Positions 4,401 to 55,240 of a stretch of 60,814 nucleotides of DNA are shown in pieces. Source of the DNA: a virus; the IMG/VR virus record IMGVR_UViG_3300033144_004933, positions 1-60,814 of that record; one strand, given 5' to 3'. The number at the start of each line of letters is the position of its first letter. Position 1 is the first letter of the stretch. Position numbers and translations under genes: made by a program. The notes beneath the pieces are model-generated. The model searched no databases, had not been told where the DNA came from, and worked only from the letters and a program-made list of their open reading frames with translations.

Positions 4401-6767
4401 GGATATACCAACCTAACTACTAAACCCCATGAAGACAATAAAATAGGAAATTTTTCCTGGTCTTCAAATAACTCAGATATTTCCCGGAAAGGACATACAG
4501 CAATAGTAGATCTTTGCAGACTTCCAAATAACCAATATGGGGGCAATACTTATCTGGCACGTCAGAATAGTGAGTACATAACTACAGGAAACTATGTTCC
4601 CGTAAATACTACGGATACAGAACTAAGTACTGTTGTATTTGGCGGAGATATAGCAATAAGTGCTTTTGGAGAGAAAAAGATATATGAACAAGCTTACTTA
4701 GACTTACAAGGCAACCAAACTACACAAGATCCTGAATCCCTTACAATTTCTTATGTATCTCATTTAATGGGTAGAATCTTTCCAGTACAAACTATTGGTA
4801 ATATAGAATTAAGAACCGGGTTTGAGTTCAATAACTACATACAAGGAGGGGGAGGAGATATATCTCTAAGAAGAATAGCTCCTGATGAATACTTATTGCC
4901 AGTAATGTATCATAAAGAGAAGACTTTACAACACTATTTAGTAGAAGGTGCTGGAAATACTATTATAGGGGAGTTTGATACTAGGGTTTATATGTCAGAA
5001 TTAAAGATAAACGGAGAGTTATCTGATTCCTGGAGTTCTTTTAAACCTTTAAATTATATTGATGTAGATGGTCCTTATGGTCCTATAAATAAATTAGAAG
5101 TTTTAAATAGAAAAATTATCTTTTTTCAAGACCATGCTCATGGAACAGTAGACCTTAATCCTCGTTCTCTAATTACTGATTTAGAAGGAGGAGAAATTGA
5201 ACTGGGTACTGGAGCAGGATTAGTAGATTTTACTTATGCTTCTAATACAGTAGGAGCATTTCATCAATGGGGAGTTTTAAAAGGCAATGGAGCTATTTAC
5301 TTTTTTGATGCTTATCATAAGAAGATGTATAAAATAGATGGGCAAGGAGTAAGAGCACTCTCAGACCAAAAATCAATGAGTTCTTATTTCTTTAATAATA
5401 TAGTAGGTTCTGTATTAAATAAAGATAACTCCCTATTATTTGAAGGAATAGCAACTACTTTTGATTATAGATTTAATGAAGCCATATTTACTTTCCACAC
5501 AAAAGTGGGATTATATGTTAAACCTTCTGGAGAAATAAACACTGCATTAAAAGAAGTTGTTAAAACTGAATATTCAGATAGGGTATTAGGAATAGTATCT
5601 ATTCCCCTTGGGGGAGGAATATCTATTCCTTATTATTTAGCTAATTTACCAGTAGTATGTCAAATAGATACCACTGGGGAAATATATGATATTAATCATT
5701 CTTTAGATACTTATCAATTAAATTTTGATAGTACTGCAGATTACAATAAAGTAATCTCTGATCTAAATGCGGGATGTAGATTACAAATTTATGATGGTTC
5801 CTCTACGGACCCTATCCTACTTAATAAATGGGTAAATGCTCAGGTAGTACCTGGATTTCAAAGTGAACAAAATTTTCAGATAGAAGCTCCGGTAGGTTAC
5901 TTTAAATATGTATTTAGCAATAATTTAACAGATACTAATCTAAGATATAGAACTGTTACTGATGATATTAACTTTAACAACATAGTAGAAGAACTAAATT
6001 TAGGGTACAATCTTCAAATAAAAGATCAATATGGTATTTGGAGAGAAGCTACCATAAAATCTTATACTCCAGATTCAATTATTTTAAATCTAGGATTAGA
6101 GTTAGAAAATACTTTTCCTGCTGTTTCCATAACTTCAGAGTGGCCCATAGAGCTGAGAACAATAGCCTATGAGTATGTAAGTCCTGAAGGGGAAGTTATC
6201 ACTACCGGAGATGATGATACTAGGGTAGCACAGTCCATAACTTTGGTATTTAATGAAGCCATAGACGCTTTTAGCTCTTTTTATGACCATTATCCTCCTA
6301 TTTATATGAATGATACCAGGAGGATATTCAGTCAAGTTCCTAAAGGATACCGGATGTATATACATGATGAAGGAAGAAGACAAGAGTTTTATGGAGTACC
6401 TTTTCCTATGACCTTAGATTTAGTAGTAAGTCCTAAGGGAGATTGGACTAAGGTATTCAACAATGTAGAGTTCTTTACAATACTAGAAAATGAATTAGGA
6501 GAAGATATTTTTAATGAAACTTTTCAAGAACTACAGATATACAATGAATATCAGGATACAGGTACAACTACTTTAGTTCCAAATACTAATGTCAAAAGAA
6601 GAATGAGAACTTGGAGATTAGCAATCCCCAGAGATAGTTCTGGTAGCAATGCCCGGATAAGAAATCCTTATGTACAAATGTTTTTAAAATTTCTAAACAC
6701 AACTGGAGTAGATAGAAGATTTGTAGTACATGACATAAATACGCACTATATAGATGTTCCTATGTAA
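1464..6767 (+). CDS. Tail nozzle / stabilization protein (T7 gp12-like)
   Basis: A 1767-aa protein. The N-terminus contains FIKGMDKDTSKQKYENTKYE (residues 11-30), then 'NLRNGR..TDKGLSTRALENIKGN'. This matches the N-terminal signature of phage nozzle/stabilization proteins (a GMxxD segment, then an 'N.R....G.S....NIKGN' strand). The bulk is beta-rich with many short G/N/T turns, consistent with the large beta-propeller tail nozzle of podoviruses. It would form the distal portion of the short tail through which DNA and internal proteins exit. No enzymatic motif is seen. It sits immediately after the putative tubular protein and is followed by about 100 bases with a promoter-like element. The assignment rests on N-terminal pattern, size and position. 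Confidence 0.62.
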   Translation: MKPQVHTNTFIKGMDKDTSKQKYENTKYENLRNGRPITDKGLSTRALENIKGNAVAYDFPLLKSFMYISATPLTNDSPLVEKQENVIIDFDASYPTSGNAYFSGVVTFHTGEEYLTQIAGLVDTFNTTVGTGEEIKYYKVPGGNNLVLYTEFVHFNGIILQNYSPYASVEVANDFLNFKVIGSTVLRERLLLFTVNKQGPLEYGQIWENTYDSENPLGTQKIVLKYNQKLNLSEKHPIEALSYRENEDTELLYWTDNFHPPRKINLADQNAMALIPDELLLSSKSQLYPAMVSGEEQSGGLLPSGIYYLTYKLEKFGGNITNIAPFSNYVPLIADVTSTQGTETNYENTNYPETTIGTEKSLRYLIPNIPKGFDKIYVYVVYQDAPSNQLAYLVEEKLIGNTSSLELTISSLGDKPKVTVSSLFSYDIDFEKVKTMATKDSRLLFGNVKHAAFDLDFDARAYRFNANGDSYTPISSGKLNWGIDLEENVINPENDDRTANLSPDDYSYQTDGVTRGGEGPNIKYEFTTKEVILDSCTNAAPTNTSPWTGYQNLYKLTPIKTPFINQPIKTTDLYDIENNIASPIEIDLGPGFRNFKNTRWEHYYKGYMRDEIYRFGIVFYSLTGSPSEVKWIADIRMPIDSELSATNPDSVLCRWWGKDGTIPEGVGLPYGIHDVGRDEGNTLQEYKLNYASVGGSLGVKFTVDVSSLSGKISGYSIVRSPREEKDRTILAEGAIGEVRKGVFGGDAASTNTLEGELLYNHTDVNEGNFSAYSSSFDPQEVEDVVTFDAPDLKFMTGARIRDYEGGETEEKSYYLKPVAGYVHIDESDTGLDVGPLQVPFQIATPIVDGAPVIGTPTVIKPESIHESLGGAGPSAYCKSLLRIFGVGRNSRLNAVKEGQSFPQNAYGKLEDIKKVESNTLESKIQGQRFSNRGNPLLISDTTGGAPVIKAILAGPGVFTVLGAGNPSKKMAWRILNESFGYTNLTTKPHEDNKIGNFSWSSNNSDISRKGHTAIVDLCRLPNNQYGGNTYLARQNSEYITTGNYVPVNTTDTELSTVVFGGDIAISAFGEKKIYEQAYLDLQGNQTTQDPESLTISYVSHLMGRIFPVQTIGNIELRTGFEFNNYIQGGGGDISLRRIAPDEYLLPVMYHKEKTLQHYLVEGAGNTIIGEFDTRVYMSELKINGELSDSWSSFKPLNYIDVDGPYGPINKLEVLNRKIIFFQDHAHGTVDLNPRSLITDLEGGEIELGTGAGLVDFTYASNTVGAFHQWGVLKGNGAIYFFDAYHKKMYKIDGQGVRALSDQKSMSSYFFNNIVGSVLNKDNSLLFEGIATTFDYRFNEAIFTFHTKVGLYVKPSGEINTALKEVVKTEYSDRVLGIVSIPLGGGISIPYYLANLPVVCQIDTTGEIYDINHSLDTYQLNFDSTADYNKVISDLNAGCRLQIYDGSSTDPILLNKWVNAQVVPGFQSEQNFQIEAPVGYFKYVFSNNLTDTNLRYRTVTDDINFNNIVEELNLGYNLQIKDQYGIWREATIKSYTPDSIILNLGLELENTFPAVSITSEWPIELRTIAYEYVSPEGEVITTGDDDTRVAQSITLVFNEAIDAFSSFYDHYPPIYMNDTRRIFSQVPKGYRMYIHDEGRRQEFYGVPFPMTLDLVVSPKGDWTKVFNNVEFFTILENELGEDIFNETFQELQIYNEYQDTGTTTLVPNTNVKRRMRTWRLAIPRDSSGSNARIRNPYVQMFLKFLNTTGVDRRFVVHDINTHYIDVPM

Positions 6768-6855
6768 CCTAATTTTTAATATTACATATGATAATTTATA
6801 ATATACTGAATTAGATAATAAATTAGAATAACCTTTTATTTTAGGAGTAAAACTT

Positions 6856-6863
6856 TATATTTG
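6856..6863 (+). promoter_or_regulatory. Bacteroidota-type -7 promoter element (TATATTTG)
   Basis: TATATTTG matches the Bacteroidota -7 consensus TAnnTTTG exactly. It lies in the only sizeable gap of the late block, ending 5 bases before the ATG of the next gene. A transcript starting at the usual distance would be leaderless or nearly so. A clear -33 TTTG box is not obvious (an upstream T-rich stretch, TTTTATTTTA, is present), so the call is tentative. Confidence 0.35.
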
Positions 6864-6868
6864 CGATA

Positions 6869-9800
6869 ATGCCACATAATCCAACCCATATAGACCCTAC
6901 TTCTAGTGATGATGAGCCTATTTTTGGAGGCACTATTCCCTCTGTTACTGTCTATTCAGAACCAGGAGATTTAGAAGCATATAAAAATAAGATAAGAAAT
7001 AAAAATCTTTCAAATTTATATGAAAGACCTGCAGAGCTGGGAAGGGAGCTTTTAGGATTAGGAAAAGAATTGTTTGTAGACCCTGGAGTAAGACTCTATG
7101 GTAAAGGGATAGGACCAGTGACAGAAGATATGAGATATAATCTCCAAGATCTTGCAGGATTACAATATGCTCCCTTTATGGATATAAATCCAATCACAGG
7201 ACAGCCCTATGGACGAGGACTTGAAACTGCTTTAGACCTTTCCACTTATATGGGGTTAGGTATAGCTGGAGGAGTGAGGGGAGTAGGGAAAAAAATGCTT
7301 CCAAAAATAGTTAATAAATTAAAAGATATTAAAAATACTCCTACTGTACAAGCTGTGATAGACCATGCTAAAGGAGTTGCTAAAACAGTTAAAACTGGAA
7401 AATATGATAGATATGCAAGGCATGGAACAGACAAAAGTAAAGCATTAAAGAAGGAACAAGAAAAAGCTTTTGAAGAGGGATTGCAGTTTGTAGATGATTA
7501 CTTTTATGGTACTGGGGGAAGCCGTACTTTACATCCAACAATTGTAAAGAGAATAGAAGATATGTATAAAAAAGCGGGTCTTAAACCTGAGCCTTATATG
7601 GTTAAGGGAAAATTACACCAGCCTGATACAAGGATGGGAATAGTAGGAAGTGGGTTGAAGAAACATCCAGATGATTTACAGTTTCTAGGCCATAGAAATA
7701 CAAGTACTGTTGATAACCGTTTGCTAGATTTGCGTGATTCTAAAATTCCTGCTAGATATGGTGATACAAAGAAATTAATGGAGATGAGGTCAGATATATT
7801 AGGATTAAATACAGGTAATTATGCTTATACTCTTGGTACTAAGGGAAATTATCATTTATCTCCTGAAGTTGTTAGAAGCACAGCAATACATGAAGCAGGT
7901 CATAGTGGAGAAGGTATAGGATTGCTTTTAAGTGGGAAAGGGGCCCCGATGACAAGAGGGTATGGAAGTGTTTTAGCAAAGGAAGGAGGAAAAGATTTTG
8001 GTTATAAAATAGCAAATACTGATAATCCTCTTGGAAAGCGTTTTTATGATGCAATGGTAGCTCCTAAAAAATTAAAAAAAGGACAAGATTGGAGAGTTAA
8101 TTGGAAAGCATCTCCAAATGAACTTGCACAAGAAACTTTAGCAGCTAAGGGTATGTTACATTCTAAAGAGGGTACCTCCCTTTCTGCTCTCAGGGAACCT
8201 TCTGATGAGATTGTAGATAAATTAATAAAGATAAATAATTTAAACAGATTTTTTAAAAAATCCACCCCCCTGAAAGAAAAAAGAGAACTTATCAAAATGT
8301 TACTTACAGGATCTGTTCCAGCAGCAACTGTATTAAATGAAAATTACAGATATGGAGGAAATCTTTCTAAATATGCACAAGGAGCAGATGTAACTCCTTG
8401 GGATGGTAAAAAAATGGAGTCTCTTATTCCACCACTTTATTCTCCGTTGCATTTACAACAACCGAATACTCTTGAGTTCTTTACCAGGAGTGCTCAAGAA
8501 GGAGAATCACATATAGAACGAGCTTTAGACGGAAGACCTCTCGGGGCTATTTCTCCCCACATGACTCCTGAACCTTGGCAACTAGGATTTCCTTTTACAG
8601 ATGCCACTCCTGAAGAAAAAAATAGCAAGTACAAAAGTCCTTCCGTAACAAATCCAAAACAAGAAGCATCTCTTATGCCTGGAGGAGGGAGTCTTTCTGG
8701 TTTAATAAGTAAATTAGCAGAGTTTGGATTATCTTATGACGAGTATGAAAAGATGGCAAAGGATATAGCAGATGAAGCTACTAAAGAAGCAGATAGTTGG
8801 ATGGACCAACAAATAGAGGCAGGGATGCCTATAGGAAAAGCAGAAAGAGATGCTGATAGTTATAGACATGCCTTGGCAACAAGTAGGTTAGCTGAAGGGA
8901 TAGGGAAAAAGAGAGGAAATGAAAGTCCTAGCTTTATTGATAAAGCAGCAGCTTTTACAGCAAGTTTAAGACCTGAAGTAGAATCTATCTTTAATATGCA
9001 TAAAAACTATCCGGATGAAGATCTTAAATGGTATGATATTCCTAAAGGACTTCCTTATGATGTTTATAATAATCTTATAGGAGCTACACTTACTCCTGAA
9101 GAAGCTAAAGAAAAAGCCATAGCAGGGGACTTACCAAATGAACCCCTTTATGATGATATAGACGTAGGTCCACCTCCTCATTATAGAGGTGCTCAGAAAG
9201 TAGTCTGGGACCCAACTGAAGAAAATAAAGAAGAAAAAGAACTAAAACCATTTAAACTAGGAGGAAACATTCCTAATAACAACAATGTCATGAATTTACA
9301 ACAAGCAAAAAACGCTGGAAGATTCGGAGACACCGAACTAGTACATGTAAACAAAGAAGAAAAAGAACTTCTTAAACAGTATAGTGGTAAGCATACTCCT
9401 ACCATAAATCCCCATACAGGATTAGAAGAATACTGGGCCCAAGCTCTTATCCCCCTCATTCCCTGGGCAGTTAAAGGAATAGGAAAACTTTTTGGAAAAA
9501 ATAAAAGGAGTAAAGAAACTCCTGAAGTTCAAGCAGGAGGTTCTGGAATGAATCCTTTAGCAGGAGCCCAAATGGCTGACTGGATGTCTGCTATGCAAAA
9601 TAAGACTCCAGATCTTAACAACATATATAGTAGTTATGGAATGACTCCTATGTTAAGTGCTTATGGAGGAGAATTACCACAACATGGATTTGGGTTTGGA
9701 AGAGATAAGTATGGGCTATTTAACTGGGCTAATACTATGGGCAATCAATGGTCAGGAAATCAAGCGTTAGCAAACCATTTTAGTGGTAAAAATATGAGTA

Positions 9801-42294: not shown

Positions 42295-42322
42295 AAGGGA
42301 AGAGACAGTAGTCCCTTCCCTT
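42295..42322 (-). terminator. Intergenic hairpin upstream of the RecE-like nuclease gene
   Basis: AAGGGAAG pairs with CTTCCCTT (8 bp), extended inside by GAC/GTC with an AGTA loop. The T-rich stretch after it on the minus strand is interrupted, so termination may be partial. It would lower nuclease expression relative to the upstream genes. Confidence 0.5.
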
Positions 42323-42331
42323 TGAAAATGA

Positions 42332-42778
42332 TTATTCATCTTTTTCCAACCAACTGTCATCCAATGAATCCTCATTCTCTACAATGCCCTTAGATGTCTG
42401 TGAATTGTCTAGGGGAATCTCTGCTTCATCTTCTTTCTCTTCTACTACTTCCTCTGTTTTTATCTCTTCTGCTTTGGTATCTGAAACTAATTCTGTTTCC
42501 CTGATAGTTTTTGCTACTTTTTTCTTCGTTACTTTTGGAGAAATCTCTTCTTCCAAATCATCTTCTAAAATAAAAGCATTTACTTTTTCAAGAATAGTTT
42601 TCTTTCCTTTCAACTTTTCATGTTGAAATAACTTAGAAACATCTTTCTTTCTTAATCCATATTTTTCTTGAATGGATTTTTCATCTCCCTGGTACTGTTT
42701 ATCATCTTTTGTTCGAGTGTACCCATCTTTTAAATCTTGGAGAATTCCTGATACTGTAAGTTTTACTGGTTCTGACAT
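42332..42778 (-). CDS. Hypothetical acidic-tailed protein (148 aa)
   Basis: Not recognised. Residues 1-75 are a compact, Lys-rich helical region ('KSIQEKYGLRKKDVSKLFQHEKLKGKKTILEKVNAFI') that could bind nucleic acid. Residues 76-148 are a low-complexity, very acidic tail ending DDSWLEKDE. The acidic C-terminal tail with an aromatic residue resembles tails of DNA-replication accessory proteins that mediate protein contacts, but no fold can be named. It lies between the Ubl cassette and the RecE-like nuclease. Confidence 0.5.
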   Translation of the reverse strand: MSEPVKLTVSGILQDLKDGYTRTKDDKQYQGDEKSIQEKYGLRKKDVSKLFQHEKLKGKKTILEKVNAFILEDDLEEEISPKVTKKKVAKTIRETELVSDTKAEEIKTEEVVEEKEDEAEIPLDNSQTSKGIVENEDSLDDSWLEKDE

Positions 42779-42795: not shown

Positions 42796-43830
42796 TTAAT
42801 TATTTATTTCTGCTATAGGATATCCTTTCTCAGTTTTCAAATGAGACATAATCTCTTCTGAAGAACTTGAAAGAAACTCTTTATATTCATTTAAACTCTC
42901 ACATTTAACTCCGTGAAACTTTTTAAATAAAATAGAAAGAGAAGGTACCGTTACCGTCTTTATTCCCAATTCTTCCATAGGCTTTTTAATATGCTTCCTA
43001 TACTGAGGCCTGAGATTTCTGTACGCAGTCCTAGGAACATCAAAATCTTCCTTTACCCATAATTGTAGGTATTTAGAAGACACTGGTTTTTTATCCACCA
43101 TATATGTAGTTAAGAGATGTGCATATTTTGACTGAGTAACTAAACAGACTAAAGGAGTAACCACATTAGTTTGAGTGTTTATATGAGCTATATACCCCCT
43201 ACCTACAAAATACTGTGTATTAGGAAGCCTGGTCCTCATCCCTGCAAAAACCGTCATATCACTATCATGAAAATGAGATATTAAACTTGCCCATTTCCAA
43301 TATGAAAACCAACCCGTTTTATGTGCAGGAGCTATATATTCTGTATGATTAAAATTACCTATTAATTGATTATAAGACTCCTTACAATAATAAATAGCAT
43401 TAGCAAAACATCCTTTTAATTCCCTATCACTCATTGTATCTAGTTCAGTTCGCCCACTATAAGACCCTGATTTTGCTGATACTCTCTGTAGAAATGTTTC
43501 TACAGTTTTTATTATAAACCATTCCGGGAGAGTACTCTGCAAGAGATCATGAAAATAAGGAGACGCATTTACAAAATTTAATACCTTAGACATTCCATAT
43601 CTAAACCTCGTATGTTCTTCACATGTTAAAGAAACCACTTTTTCTCCTGTTATCTTTTCTTGTATCCCTAATTTATATGAACTACGTAAAACAGGAAATT
43701 TCAAAGCAAAAAGAGGAATTACTTTTCGTTTATAATCTCCTATCATACCTCTTTTAACTTCTCCCAAACTAGAATGATAGTTTATTTCTGTAGTATTAAA
43801 TACAAAAGAATTATCATCAAATTTTATCAT
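42796..43830 (-). CDS. Unknown protein coupled to the E1-like gene of the Ubl cassette
   Basis: A 344-aa protein; I do not recognise the family. It is a soluble mixed alpha/beta protein with many aromatics; the middle contains 'GWFSYWKWASLISHFHDSDMTVFAGMRTRLPNTQYFVGRGY'. No RING-like Cys/His set, no HxHx7SxxD and no E2-type His-Cys pair is visible. Its ATG overlaps the stop of the E1-like gene (ATGA type, 4 bases), the tightest coupling in the cassette, so it is likely made stoichiometrically with it. It could be a substrate, an adaptor/ligase-like factor, or the effector of the pathway. In PRTRC-type cassettes, unrelated accessory proteins occupy similar positions. Confidence 0.5.
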   Translation of the reverse strand: MIKFDDNSFVFNTTEINYHSSLGEVKRGMIGDYKRKVIPLFALKFPVLRSSYKLGIQEKITGEKVVSLTCEEHTRFRYGMSKVLNFVNASPYFHDLLQSTLPEWFIIKTVETFLQRVSAKSGSYSGRTELDTMSDRELKGCFANAIYYCKESYNQLIGNFNHTEYIAPAHKTGWFSYWKWASLISHFHDSDMTVFAGMRTRLPNTQYFVGRGYIAHINTQTNVVTPLVCLVTQSKYAHLLTTYMVDKKPVSSKYLQLWVKEDFDVPRTAYRNLRPQYRKHIKKPMEELGIKTVTVPSLSILFKKFHGVKCESLNEYKEFLSSSSEEIMSHLKTEKGYPIAEINN

Positions 43831-44516
43831 AATATTACTTGTTGAGTTATAGTAGGTAATTCAAAAAGTATTTTGAAAGGAACTTCTCTAAAATTACTTT
43901 TCTTAACTGTATTAGCTACCATATTATTAAACACTGCTACCATATAAGAAGCTGTCATTGCTCCACAATGAGAGGTAGCTTTAAGAGAACACTCCAAATC
44001 TTCTACTTCACTATCATCAAACAGCTCTTCTTCATATTGTCCTTCTTTTCCCTTGGTTACCGCCAAAACCTGGGCACTTTCACATAGCATTCTACCATCT
44101 ATGAAAATAGCCCTTCTTGACTGTTTCTTCCAACTGTTGAACATCATTTTTCTAGCTGCCATATTATCAAAACAAGAAAACATTACCGGAGTAGGAAAAG
44201 AATCTTCAGTCCACTTACCCATCTGATGAACTTCTAAATTTCCAGAAAAATTCTGTATTATAGAATTCATAGCATTTTCCTTGGACATACCTATGTAATT
44301 GCTTCCATATAATTGGCCTCCTAAATTAGTTTCATCTACTATATCCATATCCTGTAGATAAATGTCACACTCCTGTCTTGCTAAGAAAAATGCTAACCAA
44401 GACCCAATTCCCCCAATTCCCCCAATAGTTACTGGAATCCCTGGACGAAACCAAGGAGTATCAGAAAACCTGACACTCCCCGCCTTACCTTTAGTTTTTA
44501 ATTTAAGTTTTTTCAT
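43827..44516 (-). CDS. ThiF/E1-like adenylyltransferase
   Basis: A 229-aa protein with the E1/ThiF/MoeB Rossmann core: glycine-rich loop IGGIGGIGSW (31-40), acidic residues D56/D58 in 'YLQDMDIVDETNLGGQ' (the ribose/Mg region, normally followed by NLxRQ), D117 in 'SCFDNMAARK' (second catalytic Asp position), and 'FIDGRM' at 128-133. Candidate catalytic cysteines are C166 and C174. Oddities: the usual Arg of NLxRQ is replaced (NLGGQ), and there is no Zn-binding Cys quartet. Family knowledge: such enzymes adenylate the C-terminus of a ubiquitin-like protein and pass it to Cys/E2. The Ubl, E2-like and JAMM genes lie immediately upstream on the same transcript. Confidence 0.88.
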   Translation of the reverse strand: MKKLKLKTKGKAGSVRFSDTPWFRPGIPVTIGGIGGIGSWLAFFLARQECDIYLQDMDIVDETNLGGQLYGSNYIGMSKENAMNSIIQNFSGNLEVHQMGKWTEDSFPTPVMFSCFDNMAARKMMFNSWKKQSRRAIFIDGRMLCESAQVLAVTKGKEGQYEEELFDDSEVEDLECSLKATSHCGAMTASYMVAVFNNMVANTVKKSNFREVPFKILFELPTITQQVIL

Positions 44517-44526
44517 CTTATTTATT

Positions 44527-45672
44527 TTAAAAATGTCCTTCTGCTTCAGCTATCTTATCTGCTTCCATCCCTATCATAATAGATAAATCATCTGCAAATT
44601 GATGACACAGAGCATTCTCTGCTAATTCTTCTAAACACTGAGCTAGAGCTGTTAAAAGGCCCGTCTGATAATGATCATTAGGAAATACTGTATTATAGAC
44701 TTGAAGAAGATTGTCGTGTATATTTTTTGTATACAACTCCTGTTCTACTTCAGTTGCATCCATCCATTTATGGTCTGACCTAATGATTAAAGATTGAAGA
44801 TGCCCTGATGCTTGGGTATCTAGACAGATTAACTTATATAGAAAATCTTTAATTAAATCTCCATACTCATCCTCTGAAGAATACTCTTGATTATTCAACG
44901 TCTGTACATCCCGCAACTCTATTGTTTCCTCAGGCATCTTTGGAAATATTGTAGTCTGATTACCATAAACAGGACTTATCTTCCTTTTCTCCTTTTCCTT
45001 TCTAGCCTCTAATTTCTCAATTTCCCCATAAAAAGAATCCTCTTCTTTTTCTATCTCCATATCAATACAATACACTACTTCTTTTTTAGAAGAAATTTCT
45101 GTTCGAGAATAAGTATCATCTCCAGACACATTTTTAAAGGAAACATGAGAATTTCCCTCAAGTTTTCTTTCTCCTACTACACACAATCTGGCTACATAGT
45201 TCTTCGCAAAGTTTACTATTAGAGATAAATAATAGGCATGGTTTGGGGTATTATCCGTCAATTCCTCTTCATCAGTCCCCGAGAAGTATGCTTTCATATT
45301 ATGATGAGTATGAATATGTCCTTCCCTCCATTTATCCTTCATTATTTGTGGATAATAATCATGCATATCCAAAATATTATCTTCATTGAAGTTATATTCT
45401 GTATATCCAGGAGTTCCTATATCCATAGGATACATACATAAAGCAGTTATTTCTAAAGAACTTATATCGTCCAGATCTCCTTTATCTATCTTATAAAGTA
45501 GAACTCCTGACCATTCTTTAGCTCCACAATGAGCATGCAAAAAATTTATTTGCTTTTCTAGCTCAGTAGATATTGTAAGCTTTCCTTTTTCACTACTTAA
45601 CAATATTGAGTACTCCGGTTTAACTTCTTTAACCGTTTCCTTCTCTTTTTTATTCTTCTTTTTATTTGCCAT
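44527..45672 (-). CDS. JAB/JAMM metallopeptidase (deubiquitinase-like)
   Basis: A 381-aa protein with a complete JAMM site: E53 in 'AKEWSGVLLY', and H121-T-H123-x7-S131-x-x-D134 in 'HTHHNMKAYFSGTDEE', which fits E...HxHx7SxxD exactly. The catalytic domain spans about residues 20-185. The remainder has a charged coiled-coil-like stretch (about 205-240) and a helical C-terminal domain of unknown function. Family knowledge: JAMM peptidases linked to E1/E2/Ubl genes process Ubl precursors or remove Ubl from targets. Its start overlaps the end of the E2-like gene by 11 bases, and its end is 10 bases from the E1-like gene. Confidence 0.9.
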   Translation of the reverse strand: MANKKKNKKEKETVKEVKPEYSILLSSEKGKLTISTELEKQINFLHAHCGAKEWSGVLLYKIDKGDLDDISSLEITALCMYPMDIGTPGYTEYNFNEDNILDMHDYYPQIMKDKWREGHIHTHHNMKAYFSGTDEEELTDNTPNHAYYLSLIVNFAKNYVARLCVVGERKLEGNSHVSFKNVSGDDTYSRTEISSKKEVVYCIDMEIEKEEDSFYGEIEKLEARKEKEKRKISPVYGNQTTIFPKMPEETIELRDVQTLNNQEYSSEDEYGDLIKDFLYKLICLDTQASGHLQSLIIRSDHKWMDATEVEQELYTKNIHDNLLQVYNTVFPNDHYQTGLLTALAQCLEELAENALCHQFADDLSIMIGMEADKIAEAEGHF

Positions 45673-47041
45673 AATTTTTAGTAAAATAATAATTCATTTC
45701 TGTAGTTAATTCACGTTGTACATAGTTAGTTATGTTTGGATGAGGAACTAATTTTATAGCAGTATCCTCCTTTTGTTCTGATCCAAACTTTTCCACTCTC
45801 AAATCTATATTCTTACCTTTAAATTGGTAACCTAATTTAGTTTGAGAGAGGGTTTTATTCCATGTTTCTATAGACCATCTTATAGAAGCTGGAGTAGCTT
45901 GAGAATATAAATAGTCTCCAGAAGGAAGTTTACGAACTCTCAGTAAATCTGAACTATTAAGTAACTTTTCCAGTTCTTTAAAACTCACTGCAAATTTTCC
46001 ATCTTCTTTATTAAAGTGGCATTTAAAAGAGGATATATTTCTAATAAACCAATCAAATCCTCTCTCTAGTATATTATTGCCTAACCATATGGGAGTTCCT
46101 CCAGCATCTGTGATACTAGACATCCTAATATGAGGACCTCCTCCTAGAGATTCCCATTTTACATAAGCATCTAATTGATAAAGAAATAACTCAAAGGAAA
46201 TAGGAGAAAATTTTTCACGTCGCCATGTATTCATCATCCTAGAAAAGTCCGTATTTCCAGTACAAAAAGGTTCATACCCACTATCAACACAAGTTCTTCC
46301 TGTACTCTTACCAGTTACCAAGAGCTTCATCTTGGTGCTAGAAGGAAGATGAGAATGTCTATATCCAGATAAAGCTTCTCTATAAGAAATAGTCCCTCTC
46401 TTACCTGAGATTCTGTGTTTAAGTTTTCCTTCTACGTCTACAGTAAATTTTACATACAAATCTTTAATAGTATGAGATATTCTTCCATTAGTAATTTCAA
46501 ATTCAGGAAATCTTATGGTAATGTCATAAGTAACTACATATAGTTTTTGCTTAGGACAATTTCTTTGTATTTCCCAATTTCCTGGAAAGACAGCTTCAAG
46601 AGCTATTTCTAGTCTTTTCACAAGATTCATATCCTTCTCTGTCTTGAGAACTATTTGCTTATAATAGTCTAGAACTCTCTTTTCATTCTTTTTAGTTACT
46701 AACCTAATGTTATATCCACTTAATGAAATACACTCTCCTTCAAAATATACTGAATAATACTTTCCAAGTTCATCTTCTATCTGTATAGATGTAGTACAAG
46801 TTCCATAAGGAGCTGCTCTTGAAGTATTTTGCAATACTGGAGGCAACGATCTTATTAATCCTTCCGGAGATGTATAGTCAACAAATTTTAGAATAGATCC
46901 CGCAGGAATATGGAAGTTAGTTTGCATTCTATGAATTACTCTTCTTGAATCTACAGTACATATTCTTGTAGGGTTATAGTCTTTGTTATTTTCATAAGAA
47001 TCTTCTCCTATAGTACTAGATTTTAGCTTCATTGTTGTCAT
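45662..47041 (-). CDS. E2-like (UBC/RWD fold) protein, candidate Ubl-conjugating enzyme
   Basis: A 459-aa protein. Residues about 140-265 follow the order of a UBC fold: a helix (LVKRLEIALEAVFPGN), strands (WEIQ..., VTYDITIRFPEFEI, TIKDLYVKFTVDVE), then YRHSHLP with H229/H231, and a Cys in 'EPFCTGNTDF' (C260), followed by a Trp-containing helix. His-x-His upstream of C-x-G is the layout of prokaryotic E2-like families such as PRTRC protein B. No sequence-level identity is claimed. The N-terminal 130 residues and C-terminal 190 residues are unassigned, so it is much larger than a minimal E2. It lies between the Ubl gene and the JAMM gene. The E2 role is an inference from motif order plus context. 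Confidence 0.6.
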   Translation of the reverse strand: MTTMKLKSSTIGEDSYENNKDYNPTRICTVDSRRVIHRMQTNFHIPAGSILKFVDYTSPEGLIRSLPPVLQNTSRAAPYGTCTTSIQIEDELGKYYSVYFEGECISLSGYNIRLVTKKNEKRVLDYYKQIVLKTEKDMNLVKRLEIALEAVFPGNWEIQRNCPKQKLYVVTYDITIRFPEFEITNGRISHTIKDLYVKFTVDVEGKLKHRISGKRGTISYREALSGYRHSHLPSSTKMKLLVTGKSTGRTCVDSGYEPFCTGNTDFSRMMNTWRREKFSPISFELFLYQLDAYVKWESLGGGPHIRMSSITDAGGTPIWLGNNILERGFDWFIRNISSFKCHFNKEDGKFAVSFKELEKLLNSSDLLRVRKLPSGDYLYSQATPASIRWSIETWNKTLSQTKLGYQFKGKNIDLRVEKFGSEQKEDTAIKLVPHPNITNYVQRELTTEMNYYFTKNYGK

Positions 47042-47055
47042 AATTAAAAAAAAAT

Positions 47056-47083
47056 AAAGGGAGAGACTAATTTCTCCCCCTTT
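47056..47083 (-). terminator. Intrinsic terminator between the Ubl gene and the E2-like gene
   Basis: A stem of AAAGGG-x-GAGA with TCTC-x-CCCTTT (one A-C mismatch), followed on the minus strand by ATTTTTTTTTAA. This is a strong terminator signature. It could make the Ubl transcript much more abundant than the downstream enzyme genes, a sensible ratio for a modifier versus its enzymes. Confidence 0.7.
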
Positions 47084-47096
47084 GAATTAAAATTTA

Positions 47097-47756
47097 CTAT
47101 ATGGTACCATCTTCTACTTCTCTACGAACTGCTTCTGCTTCTTGGTCTAATACAGCCCTAGAAATTCCTCCCTTTTGAATCCTTCTGATAGTCACATTAA
47201 AAGCATTATTAAAATTGTCTTGAAGCTCTTTAATAGCAGTTATAATAGCATCATTTTGATTATTTTCTCTATACTGATCACTACTAGCAGTAGAAACAAC
47301 AGGCTCACTATTAGCTAAACTTTGAGTAGTGTCTGCTTTAAGATCTTCTTTGGACACTATTAACAAAGAATTGTCAACTCCGTGTTTCTTATCATAAGCT
47401 CGAATTTTATACCTTAGAACTGAAGGATCTCTGCTCTCAGTACGCATAGCTTTCCTTTTTCTAATTACTTTTCTAAGCTCTCCTAAAGTCATTCGAGTAT
47501 AGATATCTTCTATATTATTAGCTATTCCTGATTTGACTTGTTTATGATAAAGAAATAAAGTGAATTCTCCCTCCGGCAATAGGGCTTGGTTAGATTCCAG
47601 ACTGTTTCTGGTATCCCTTACCACTGCTCTAATGTTATTGGTTGAAAAATTAGTTATGAGAGGTTTTAGGTCTCCCCAAGTTTGAACATCTGTTTCAATG
47701 TATTGCTCATCTCCCGCACTTTGCGGAGAATGAACGGTAATAGTTCTTATAGACAT
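47097..47756 (-). CDS. Ubiquitin-like (beta-grasp) protein with C-terminal extension
   Basis: A 219-aa protein. Residues 1-77 fit a beta-grasp modifier: strand 'IRTITVHSP', strand 'YIETDVQTW' running into helix 'GDLKPLITNF', then 'IRAVVRDTRNSLESNQALLPEGEFTLFLYHKQVKSG'. This resembles the Ubl of PRTRC-type cassettes. A charged linker (80-165) and a helical C-terminus (168-219) follow. There is no terminal Gly-Gly. An internal KGG (195-197) is followed by a 22-residue tail, and KSG (75-77) ends the presumed Ubl domain. Either could be exposed by the JAMM peptidase encoded two genes downstream. Assignment rests on this pattern and on neighbours E2-like, JAMM and E1-like. Confidence 0.6.
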   Translation of the reverse strand: MSIRTITVHSPQSAGDEQYIETDVQTWGDLKPLITNFSTNNIRAVVRDTRNSLESNQALLPEGEFTLFLYHKQVKSGIANNIEDIYTRMTLGELRKVIRKRKAMRTESRDPSVLRYKIRAYDKKHGVDNSLLIVSKEDLKADTTQSLANSEPVVSTASSDQYRENNQNDAIITAIKELQDNFNNAFNVTIRRIQKGGISRAVLDQEAEAVRREVEDGTI

Positions 47757-54494: not shown

Positions 54495-54603
54495 TTTGAT
54501 TTATAGACATGAAATACCTAACCTCATCAACCTTAAAACTATATCCTAATAGCTCTAGGGTGTCAGGATTACGTACTTCATTGTCTTCTATTAATACATA
54601 CAT
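54472..54603 (-). CDS. Small ORF (43 aa) between the Mom-like gene and the 98-aa gene
   Basis: An ATG-to-TGA frame of 43 codons beginning MYVLIEDNEVRNPDTLELLG. It fills the 83-base gap between neighbours, overlapping each by 22-26 bases. The peptide looks like a small beta-hairpin protein ('YVLIEDNEV' then 'YSFKVDEVRYF'), and the codons resemble those of neighbouring genes. No family recognised. Confidence 0.35.
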   Translation of the reverse strand: MYVLIEDNEVRNPDTLELLGYSFKVDEVRYFMSINQIENGGIT

Positions 54604-55240
54604 TATTAATTACTATTTTACCTTTCTCAGTAAAGTTTAATTCTAATTGCTGTGCTGCAGACTGGCTAAATAATCCTCTTCTCTTTAAAGGGTATATGAA
54701 TTTATGTTTAGCAAAATTGCCTTTAAACTCATATCCCTTCTCAATCATTTGGGTCTTGTTATAATTATTAGGTCCTTGTTTCTTAGAAACCATCTTATTA
54801 TTAACAGGGTCCCAATACCTGGGATTCTTTTTAGTTAATCCTTGATAGGTCCAATTTGAAGCTCTATACAGTCCTCCATTATGGTTCTCTGCTGTATCTG
54901 CATAAGTAAGTAATGTTTGCCATCTTCTCTTATCAAGAACCTTAATACTTCGTGCAATCAAAAAAGATCCTGCATTCTCTGGTCTACCTTCTACCAGACA
55001 AAACCTACTTAATCCTAAGACCGCTTGATGAACTTCATTAACTGACTTAGCAGCTCCTAATGCCGGAGCATTCCATACTGCTACTCCATGAAGAGTTTTT
55101 GGGTCTCCTTTATAAAATAACCCAAAGCATTTATGGGCAAGCTTACCTGCTCCATTAGCATAGTGCCATCTTTCTGTAAATTCAGCAGCAGTGGGTAAAG
55201 ATATTTCTCTTATCCCCCATTCATTTTTAAGAAGCTTCAT
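54578..55240 (-). CDS. Mom-like GNAT-fold protein (putative DNA base modification)
   Basis: A 220-aa protein. The pattern 'FTERWHYANGAGKLAHKCFGLFYKG....GVAVWNAPAL' near residues 22-63, then 'LSRFCLVEGRPENAGSFLIARSIKVL' and 'LLTYADTAENHNGGLYRASNWTYQGLT', corresponds to the GNAT-like Mom family ('HYSG..P', 'L.R....', 'D...gH.G.iY.A.NW.Y.G'). Mom converts adenine to a bulky carbamoylmethyl derivative that blocks restriction enzymes. Whether this protein modifies DNA is inferred. It lies between Pol A-side small genes and the helicase, and its start overlaps the stop of the neighbouring membrane-protein gene by 4 bases. Confidence 0.6.
   Translation of the reverse strand: MKLLKNEWGIREISLPTAAEFTERWHYANGAGKLAHKCFGLFYKGDPKTLHGVAVWNAPALGAAKSVNEVHQAVLGLSRFCLVEGRPENAGSFLIARSIKVLDKRRWQTLLTYADTAENHNGGLYRASNWTYQGLTKKNPRYWDPVNNKMVSKKQGPNNYNKTQMIEKGYEFKGNFAKHKFIYPLKRRGLFSQSAAQQLELNFTEKGKIVINNVCINRRQ

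Follow-up and report, generated by a model that had tools for sequence, protein, structure and literature searches.

We analysed a five-gene cassette of a crAss-like phage, IMG/VR record IMGVR_UViG_3300033144_004933; the window is the whole 60,814 nt of that record, and residue numbers refer to the proteins of this phage. Positions 42796–47756 of the minus strand hold five co-oriented open reading frames (ORFs), which encode a ubiquitin-like protein (Ubl; 47097–47756), an E2-like protein (45662–47041), a JAMM/MPN+ metallopeptidase (44527–45672), an E1-like/ThiF adenylyltransferase (43827–44516) and a fifth protein, p5 (42796–43830). An initial annotation of the window had described five consecutive genes on one strand, the last four overlapping or nearly abutting, and we found every ORF where it had been placed: the E2 and JAMM genes share 11 nt and the E1 and p5 genes share 4 nt, with a 10 nt gap between JAMM and E1 and 55 nt between Ubl and E2. 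The cassette lies, as also described, between genes for RusA (PHROG match 5.6e-8) and RecE/exonuclease VIII (2e-30), on the strand opposite to the large late genes, supporting the presence of a conjugation-type gene set within a crAss-like replication and recombination block. By sequence alone, E1 was recognised and JAMM weakly so, and none of the other three cassette proteins was; PHROGs families exist for Ubl, E2, JAMM and E1, all labelled 'unknown function'.

An E1-anchored scan of IMG/VR yielded 80 loci. The order Ubl, E2, JAMM, E1 on a single strand was found without exception in all sufficiently long loci, and because the same ordered set recurs in each of these, the cassette is not a chance arrangement. 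Co-occurrence of the genes, which the initial annotation had proposed as a check, extends to p5: of 82 loci with sufficient sequence, 78 have an ORF starting at the E1 stop (within ~35 nt). The cassette order is likewise seen in crAss001 (gp79–gp75), where the genes are annotated as thiamine biosynthesis protein, metalloprotease or hypothetical, and in DAC15 and Flavobacterium phage Fpv3. Named carriers among Steigviridae/Asinivirinae and other crAss-like phages are crAss001 and its relatives, DAC15/17, cr85, cr106, cr111, cr112, cr126, cr128 and Kolpuevirus; further carriers are Fipvunavirus of Flavobacterium psychrophilum, Dulem virus 41 and bajarodcaudo virus 1. The cassette is not peculiar to this phage; it is conserved in Steigviridae and Fipvunavirus phages. 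We also considered a bacterial chromosomal system, which it probably is not: a scan of 85,462 prokaryote genomes gave only two matches, both contigs of metagenome-assembled genomes, one of them with cassette-like ORF sizes and pattern. The cassette looks like a phage-borne system.

The modifier, its enzymes and p5

Residue conservation was counted over diverse homologues (57 for Ubl, 60 for E2, 61 for JAMM and 59 for E1). The initial annotation had read the 219-aa protein as a beta-grasp Ubl and had let its case depend on that fold. The AlphaFold2 (AF2) model upheld this, with residues 1–73 forming a bb-a-b-b beta-grasp (block pLDDT 93–98) that ends just before a flexible stretch containing K75-S76-G77 (47526–47534), beyond which lies a helical tail. 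Nearly all of the 50 PDB matches listed by Foldseek belong to the ubiquitin superfamily (SUMO, ISG15, UBX, ubiquitin variants), among them Caldiarchaeum ubiquitin in complex with its Rpn11-type peptidase; among the matches listed, TMt reached 0.70 and the best E was 3e-3, with none at or below 0.001. Family scans, single and member by member, matched only uncharacterised PHROGs (PHROG 15560 at 5e-8 for this phage). G77 is the sole invariant residue of the Ubl family (57/57), preceded by S in 51 members and, one position earlier, by K or R in 51. Because this Gly is terminal in no member (1 to 252 residues follow it; one in 6 members and 3–5 in 4), the protein looks, from sequence, like a precursor whose Gly must be exposed by cleavage, and KSG is the predicted mature C-terminus. 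Ubiquitin and SUMO precursors that require a protease have extensions of this kind, and the JAMM gene is two genes downstream; once cleaved, the protein would present both the fold and the C-terminal Gly of a ubiquitin-like modifier. In one homologue (locus L067, 3325–4263), the tail carries a domain resembling the one at the C-terminus of ribosomal protein L7/L12 (Pfam 3.1e-10 in one member; placed by phmmer at 9e-8).

The 381-aa peptidase has the JAMM ligands E53, H121, H123, S131 and D134 exactly as the initial annotation had listed them, and these five residues, in the pattern E-x(n)-H-x-H-x(7)-S-x(2)-D, are invariant in 61 of 61 homologues, 52 of which match Prok-JAB at E<0.1. A PDB sequence search with the JAMM, E2 and Ubl profiles gave no relevant match. 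In several loci the JAMM gene is interrupted inside its HxH codons or immediately behind them (insertions at L068 4499–5679, L075 4523–5707, L076 5145–5437 and L054 3637–4744; L058 is split as L054). Rfam identified group I introns in L075 and L076 (1.6e-17 and 1.5e-15), and by eye we assigned LAGLIDADG-like ORFs inside the inserts of L054, L068 and L075; the E1 gene of L054 is also split, at its NLxxQ motif (5774–6998). Group I introns favour invariant codons in important genes.

The identification of the 229-aa protein as ThiF/E1 was confirmed by a match to Pfam ThiF (PF00899, 2.9e-13) above the cut-off, and its highest-scoring NCBIfam models are ThiF. G33, G35, G36, S39, D56, D58, N64, Q68, K79, D117 and C176 are invariant in 59 of 59 members, so that the GxGGxG motif, the D, K and D residues and the catalytic Cys of the family are present throughout, apart from position 38 (G in 54 members, S in 5). 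C176 (43989–43991), the predicted thioester cysteine, matches in the alignment the Cys conserved in PRTRC ThiF and in E. coli MoeB, ThiF and TcdA.

The AF2 model of the 459-aa protein is poorly predicted over its N-terminal 111 residues and confident in a UBC-like core spanning approximately residues 112–300. The core comprises a helix (120–151), strands 156–161, 171–184, 189–202 and 212–218, an HSH motif (229–231), Cys260 (46262–46264) and helices 265–275 and 280–295, which is the UBC order of helix, four strands, H..C and helices. N185, S230, H231, C260, G262, E297, S298, G301 and P303 are invariant in 60 of 60 members, C260 being the predicted catalytic cysteine. Thus, of the UBC-like assignment in the initial annotation, the motif and the topology stood and a significant structural match did not: among the 50 PDB matches listed by Foldseek, the highest TMt was that of the TSG101 UEV domain, at 0.42–0.43 with E about 2. 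Family scans, single and member by member, matched only uncharacterised PHROGs, and a BFVD search with the model returned crAss-like homologues and two weaker unnamed proteins. On its modelled fold, we regard the protein as probably, though not provenly, E2-like. Elsewhere, in Xanthomonas phage PhiXhv-12 (L103 4262–7636; a 228-kb lineage), an 892-aa protein with Cys-rich ends and an E2-like motif, HPHM..LCLG, is immediately followed by an E1 belonging to the cassette family (profile hidden Markov model (HMM) match 1.5e-30); the E1 is also present in Erwinia phage Ep032. We found no cassette-family Ubl or JAMM in the vicinity of the PhiXhv-12 genes.

The fifth protein, p5 (344 aa), is encoded by the ORF coupled to E1. 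Its HMM recognises about half of the E1-coupled slot ORFs (40 loci), and we considered whether p5 is optional; this was rejected, as hhalign joined the unrecognised ORFs to the recognised ones (P 95.8, E 7e-9, 189 columns), with nothing from the reversed decoy. Near the N-terminus, 22 of 36 and 25 of 37 members of the two halves have a [YF]-[IV]-P-[LI]-like motif, where ~2.5 are expected in each. Because the profile comparison unites both halves, p5 is, by sequence comparison, a regular cassette member; it evolves faster than the other four, with a mean pairwise identity of 18%, as against 24% for E2, 29% for JAMM, 29% for Ubl and 43% for E1. Between p5 and RecE lies a gene for a 148-aa protein (42332–42778, minus strand) that is probably in the same transcription unit; scans of Pfam, NCBIfam and PHROG gave no convincing family match for it, and a terminator-like hairpin follows at 42322–42295.

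The Ubl gene is separated from the enzyme genes by an intrinsic-terminator-like hairpin and T run on the minus strand (47056–47083), a possible attenuator with an 11-bp stem followed by ATTTTTTTTT (-16.2 kcal/mol). Of 68 testable loci, 56 have such a hairpin between Ubl and E2, compared with 0.8 expected from dinucleotide shuffles. By contrast, the E2/JAMM and JAMM/E1 junctions have one in 1 of 70 and 2 of 71 loci, respectively. Among gaps of 20–400 nt, hairpins occur in 40 of 50 between Ubl and E2 (80%), in 2 of 30 upstream of Ubl and in 47 of 295 elsewhere (16%); the Fisher p value of 5e-19 for Ubl/E2 versus other gaps is optimistic, since the loci are related. The hairpin sequences vary between loci while the element itself is kept. 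The simplest reading is that partial termination would yield more modifier than enzyme.

Relation to known conjugation systems

The initial annotation had pointed to PRTRC (ParB-related, ThiF-related cassette), Bil and CBASS (cyclic-oligonucleotide-based antiphage signalling system) gene sets as relatives. The plasmid-borne PRTRC system (operon type 6d of Iyer et al., 2006) and the phage cassette both have separate Ubl, E2-like, JAMM and ThiF genes, their relative order agrees (C, (F), B, A, ThiF in PRTRC) and the Ubls of both have a conserved C-terminal Gly. The resemblance held for E1, which aligns with PRTRC ThiF in hhalign over 187 columns (P 99.2, E 6e-20), and is plausible for JAMM against PRTRC A (P 76). 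It did not hold for E2 against PRTRC B or Ubl against PRTRC C, neither of which rose above reversed decoys in hhalign, including comparisons that used trimmed cores and a broader PRTRC set. All 59 E1 members match the PRTRC ThiF model TIGR03736 at E<0.01, with this phage's E1 scoring 25 bits against a cut-off of 145, and in a tree with a small outgroup the phage E1 and PRTRC ThiF group together (support 0.93), apart from three E. coli E1s. None of the 57–60 Ubl and E2 members has a PRTRC family match, p5 was unrelated to PRTRC E or F by hhalign, and Pfam and NCBIfam detected no ParB, PRTRC E or PRTRC F among 10 proteins around the cassette. There are further differences: PRTRC C often stops exactly at the Gly, whereas the phage Ubls never do; the phage set has the additional p5; the phage E1 has NxxGQ instead of NxxRQ; and the phage E2 has its His upstream of the Cys (HSH..C), whereas type 6d E2s are reported to have no upstream His and to rely on one downstream (Iyer et al., 2006; PMC1779556). 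Because E2, Ubl and p5 could not be linked to PRTRC families, no ParB, E or F was detected among the 10 proteins and the E2 His is upstream, we do not file the cassette as PRTRC; it would work in the manner of that kind of system and is probably a distant relative of it. An unannotated PRTRC-like E-C-F-B-ThiF set that lacks a JAMM is present on a plasmid of the Bacteroidota species Phocaeicola massiliensis (L098 2287–6220).

Bil systems consist of a Ubl, an E1, an E2 and a JAB, and the phage set is of the same type. The likeness to Bil and CBASS was borne out for the E1 core and for no other cassette protein. The phage E1 matches BilD weakly (0.0047), the other cassette proteins have no match to the BilA–D models, and we do not assign the cassette to Bil. 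CBASS Cap2/Cap3 and the 6A-MBL E1-E2 likewise combine E1/E2 chemistry with a JAMM, and the phage E1 core matches PADLOC E1-E2 models (3e-8). The phage differs in having separate genes and a dedicated Ubl, with no MBL gene in the cassette; E1 and E2 are unfused and the cassette has no cGAS-like gene, unlike type II CBASS with its Cap2 E1-E2 fusion and cGAS-like enzyme. Ubl, E2 and p5 matched neither Bil nor CBASS models.

Alternative cassettes in the slot beside the primase

Among 85 E1 loci, a primase is present in 78 and lies upstream in 74, RecE lies downstream in 59 and uracil-DNA glycosylase (UDG) is present in 55. In cr116_1, of the same subfamily, this slot holds rIIA/rIIB and then UDG, and in phi14:2 and cr108_1, also of that subfamily, it holds an ATP-grasp/COOH-NH2-ligase/amidotransferase set (alternative cassettes at L105 17614–20261, L106 16260–20876 and L107 14306–21089). 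Ten records are fully complementary for slot content, and the flanks of the E1 loci contain no rIIA/B or amidoligase genes (0/85). In a primase-anchored scan, about 11 loci had rII, 5 had Ubl and 1 had amidoligase genes, and no locus combined them; the scan reaches many unrelated phages, and about 17 of its 80 loci are informative. Although the numbers are modest, these data point to an exchangeable accessory module, and the alternatives in the slot make a part in host interaction or protein modification more likely than an essential one in replication. Elsewhere in the genome, a gene for a Mom-like DNA modification protein (54578–55240; PHROG 1384, 1.4e-32) suggests that the phage DNA is modified.

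Proposed pathway and alternatives

We consider it likely that the cassette encodes a reversible Ubl-conjugation pathway. Ubl precursor would be made in excess of the enzymes by leaky termination at the hairpin. JAMM, with its catalytic residues intact, would cut after the Gly of KSG to release the C-terminus, and may reverse the tagging as well. E1 would adenylate this Gly and form a thioester on C176, Ubl would be handed to C260 of the E2-like protein, and E2, perhaps guided by p5 as a specificity factor, would attach it to target lysines. Several points weigh against this reading. The conjugation chemistry is deduced from genes and predicted folds, and the E2 fold has no significant Foldseek match in the PDB. 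The Arg of the E1 NxxRQ motif is replaced by Gly67 in 59 of 59 members, a departure from the E1 family pattern, and the ATP chemistry may differ as a result; an invariant R142 may compensate. The part given to p5 is a proposal. The slot comparison uses related, non-independent genomes, and the primase scan by itself would lack significance.

A sulfur carrier pathway, in which E1 makes a Ubl thiocarboxylate of the ThiS/ThiF or MoaD/MoeB type and no protein is tagged, would fit the ThiF models that score highest for E1 and the beta-grasp/ThiF pairs typical of such pathways (Iyer et al., 2006; PMC1779556). We consider it quite improbable, given that an E2-like protein with an invariant Cys and an intact JAMM accompany E1, that no thiamin or molybdopterin genes were seen nearby, and that E1 groups with PRTRC ThiF and not with E. 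coli MoeB or ThiF, albeit in a small tree. The pairing of a phage Ubl with a JAMM is shared with lambda TAPI/TAPK, a Ubl/JAB pair described by Iyer et al. (2006; PMC1779556). However, those are tail genes in another location without E1 or E2, whereas this cassette has both, runs opposite to the large late genes within the replication block and has a JAMM protein with no NlpC/P60 match in Pfam, making a role in virion assembly very improbable.

Two further alternatives concern what the cassette acts upon. JAMM and Ubl could mainly interfere with host conjugation of the Bil/CBASS type, by deconjugation or competition, with E1 and E2 serving as decoys; the resemblance of the E1 core to CBASS E1-E2 would suit this, as would the presence in the slot of other phages of rIIA/rIIB, whose T4 versions act against exclusion by RexAB. 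We think this improbable, though less so than a sulfur carrier, since the invariant catalytic residues of E1 and E2 speak against decoys and Ubl, E2 and p5 match no Bil/CBASS model. Alternatively, conjugation might proceed as proposed and regulate the phage's own replication or recombination proteins, as a PRTRC analogue. The primase, RecE and UDG neighbours and the kinship of E1 with PRTRC ThiF are consistent with such targets, but the cassette is missing from relatives that share the replication genes, and no ParB, PRTRC E or PRTRC F counterpart was recognised among the 10 surrounding proteins; we regard this variant as a rather unlikely one. Because relatives carry rIIA/rIIB or the amidoligase set in the slot, a role outside core replication is likelier. 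For the conjugation pathway, the likeliest role, which we put forward tentatively, is thus the tagging of a host or phage protein to protect infection, possibly as counter-defence. We rate a little below an even chance the broader proposal of a self-contained, virus-owned Ubl pathway that tags host or phage proteins during infection, with rIIA/rIIB or peptide-ligase modules able to take its place as other answers to one and the same infection problem.

A search of the open-access literature, with subscription papers and preprints outside its scope, found no paper describing the cassette, and priority is not established. Bacterial Ubl pathways are known as anti-phage defence. Here, phages themselves appear to own such a pathway, including crAss001, a cultured member of an abundant group of human-gut phages. 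With the predicted K-S-G terminus, trypsin digestion would leave target lysines carrying a diagnostic SG remnant (+144.05 Da), such that existing or new infection proteomes are directly searchable for the targets of the pathway.

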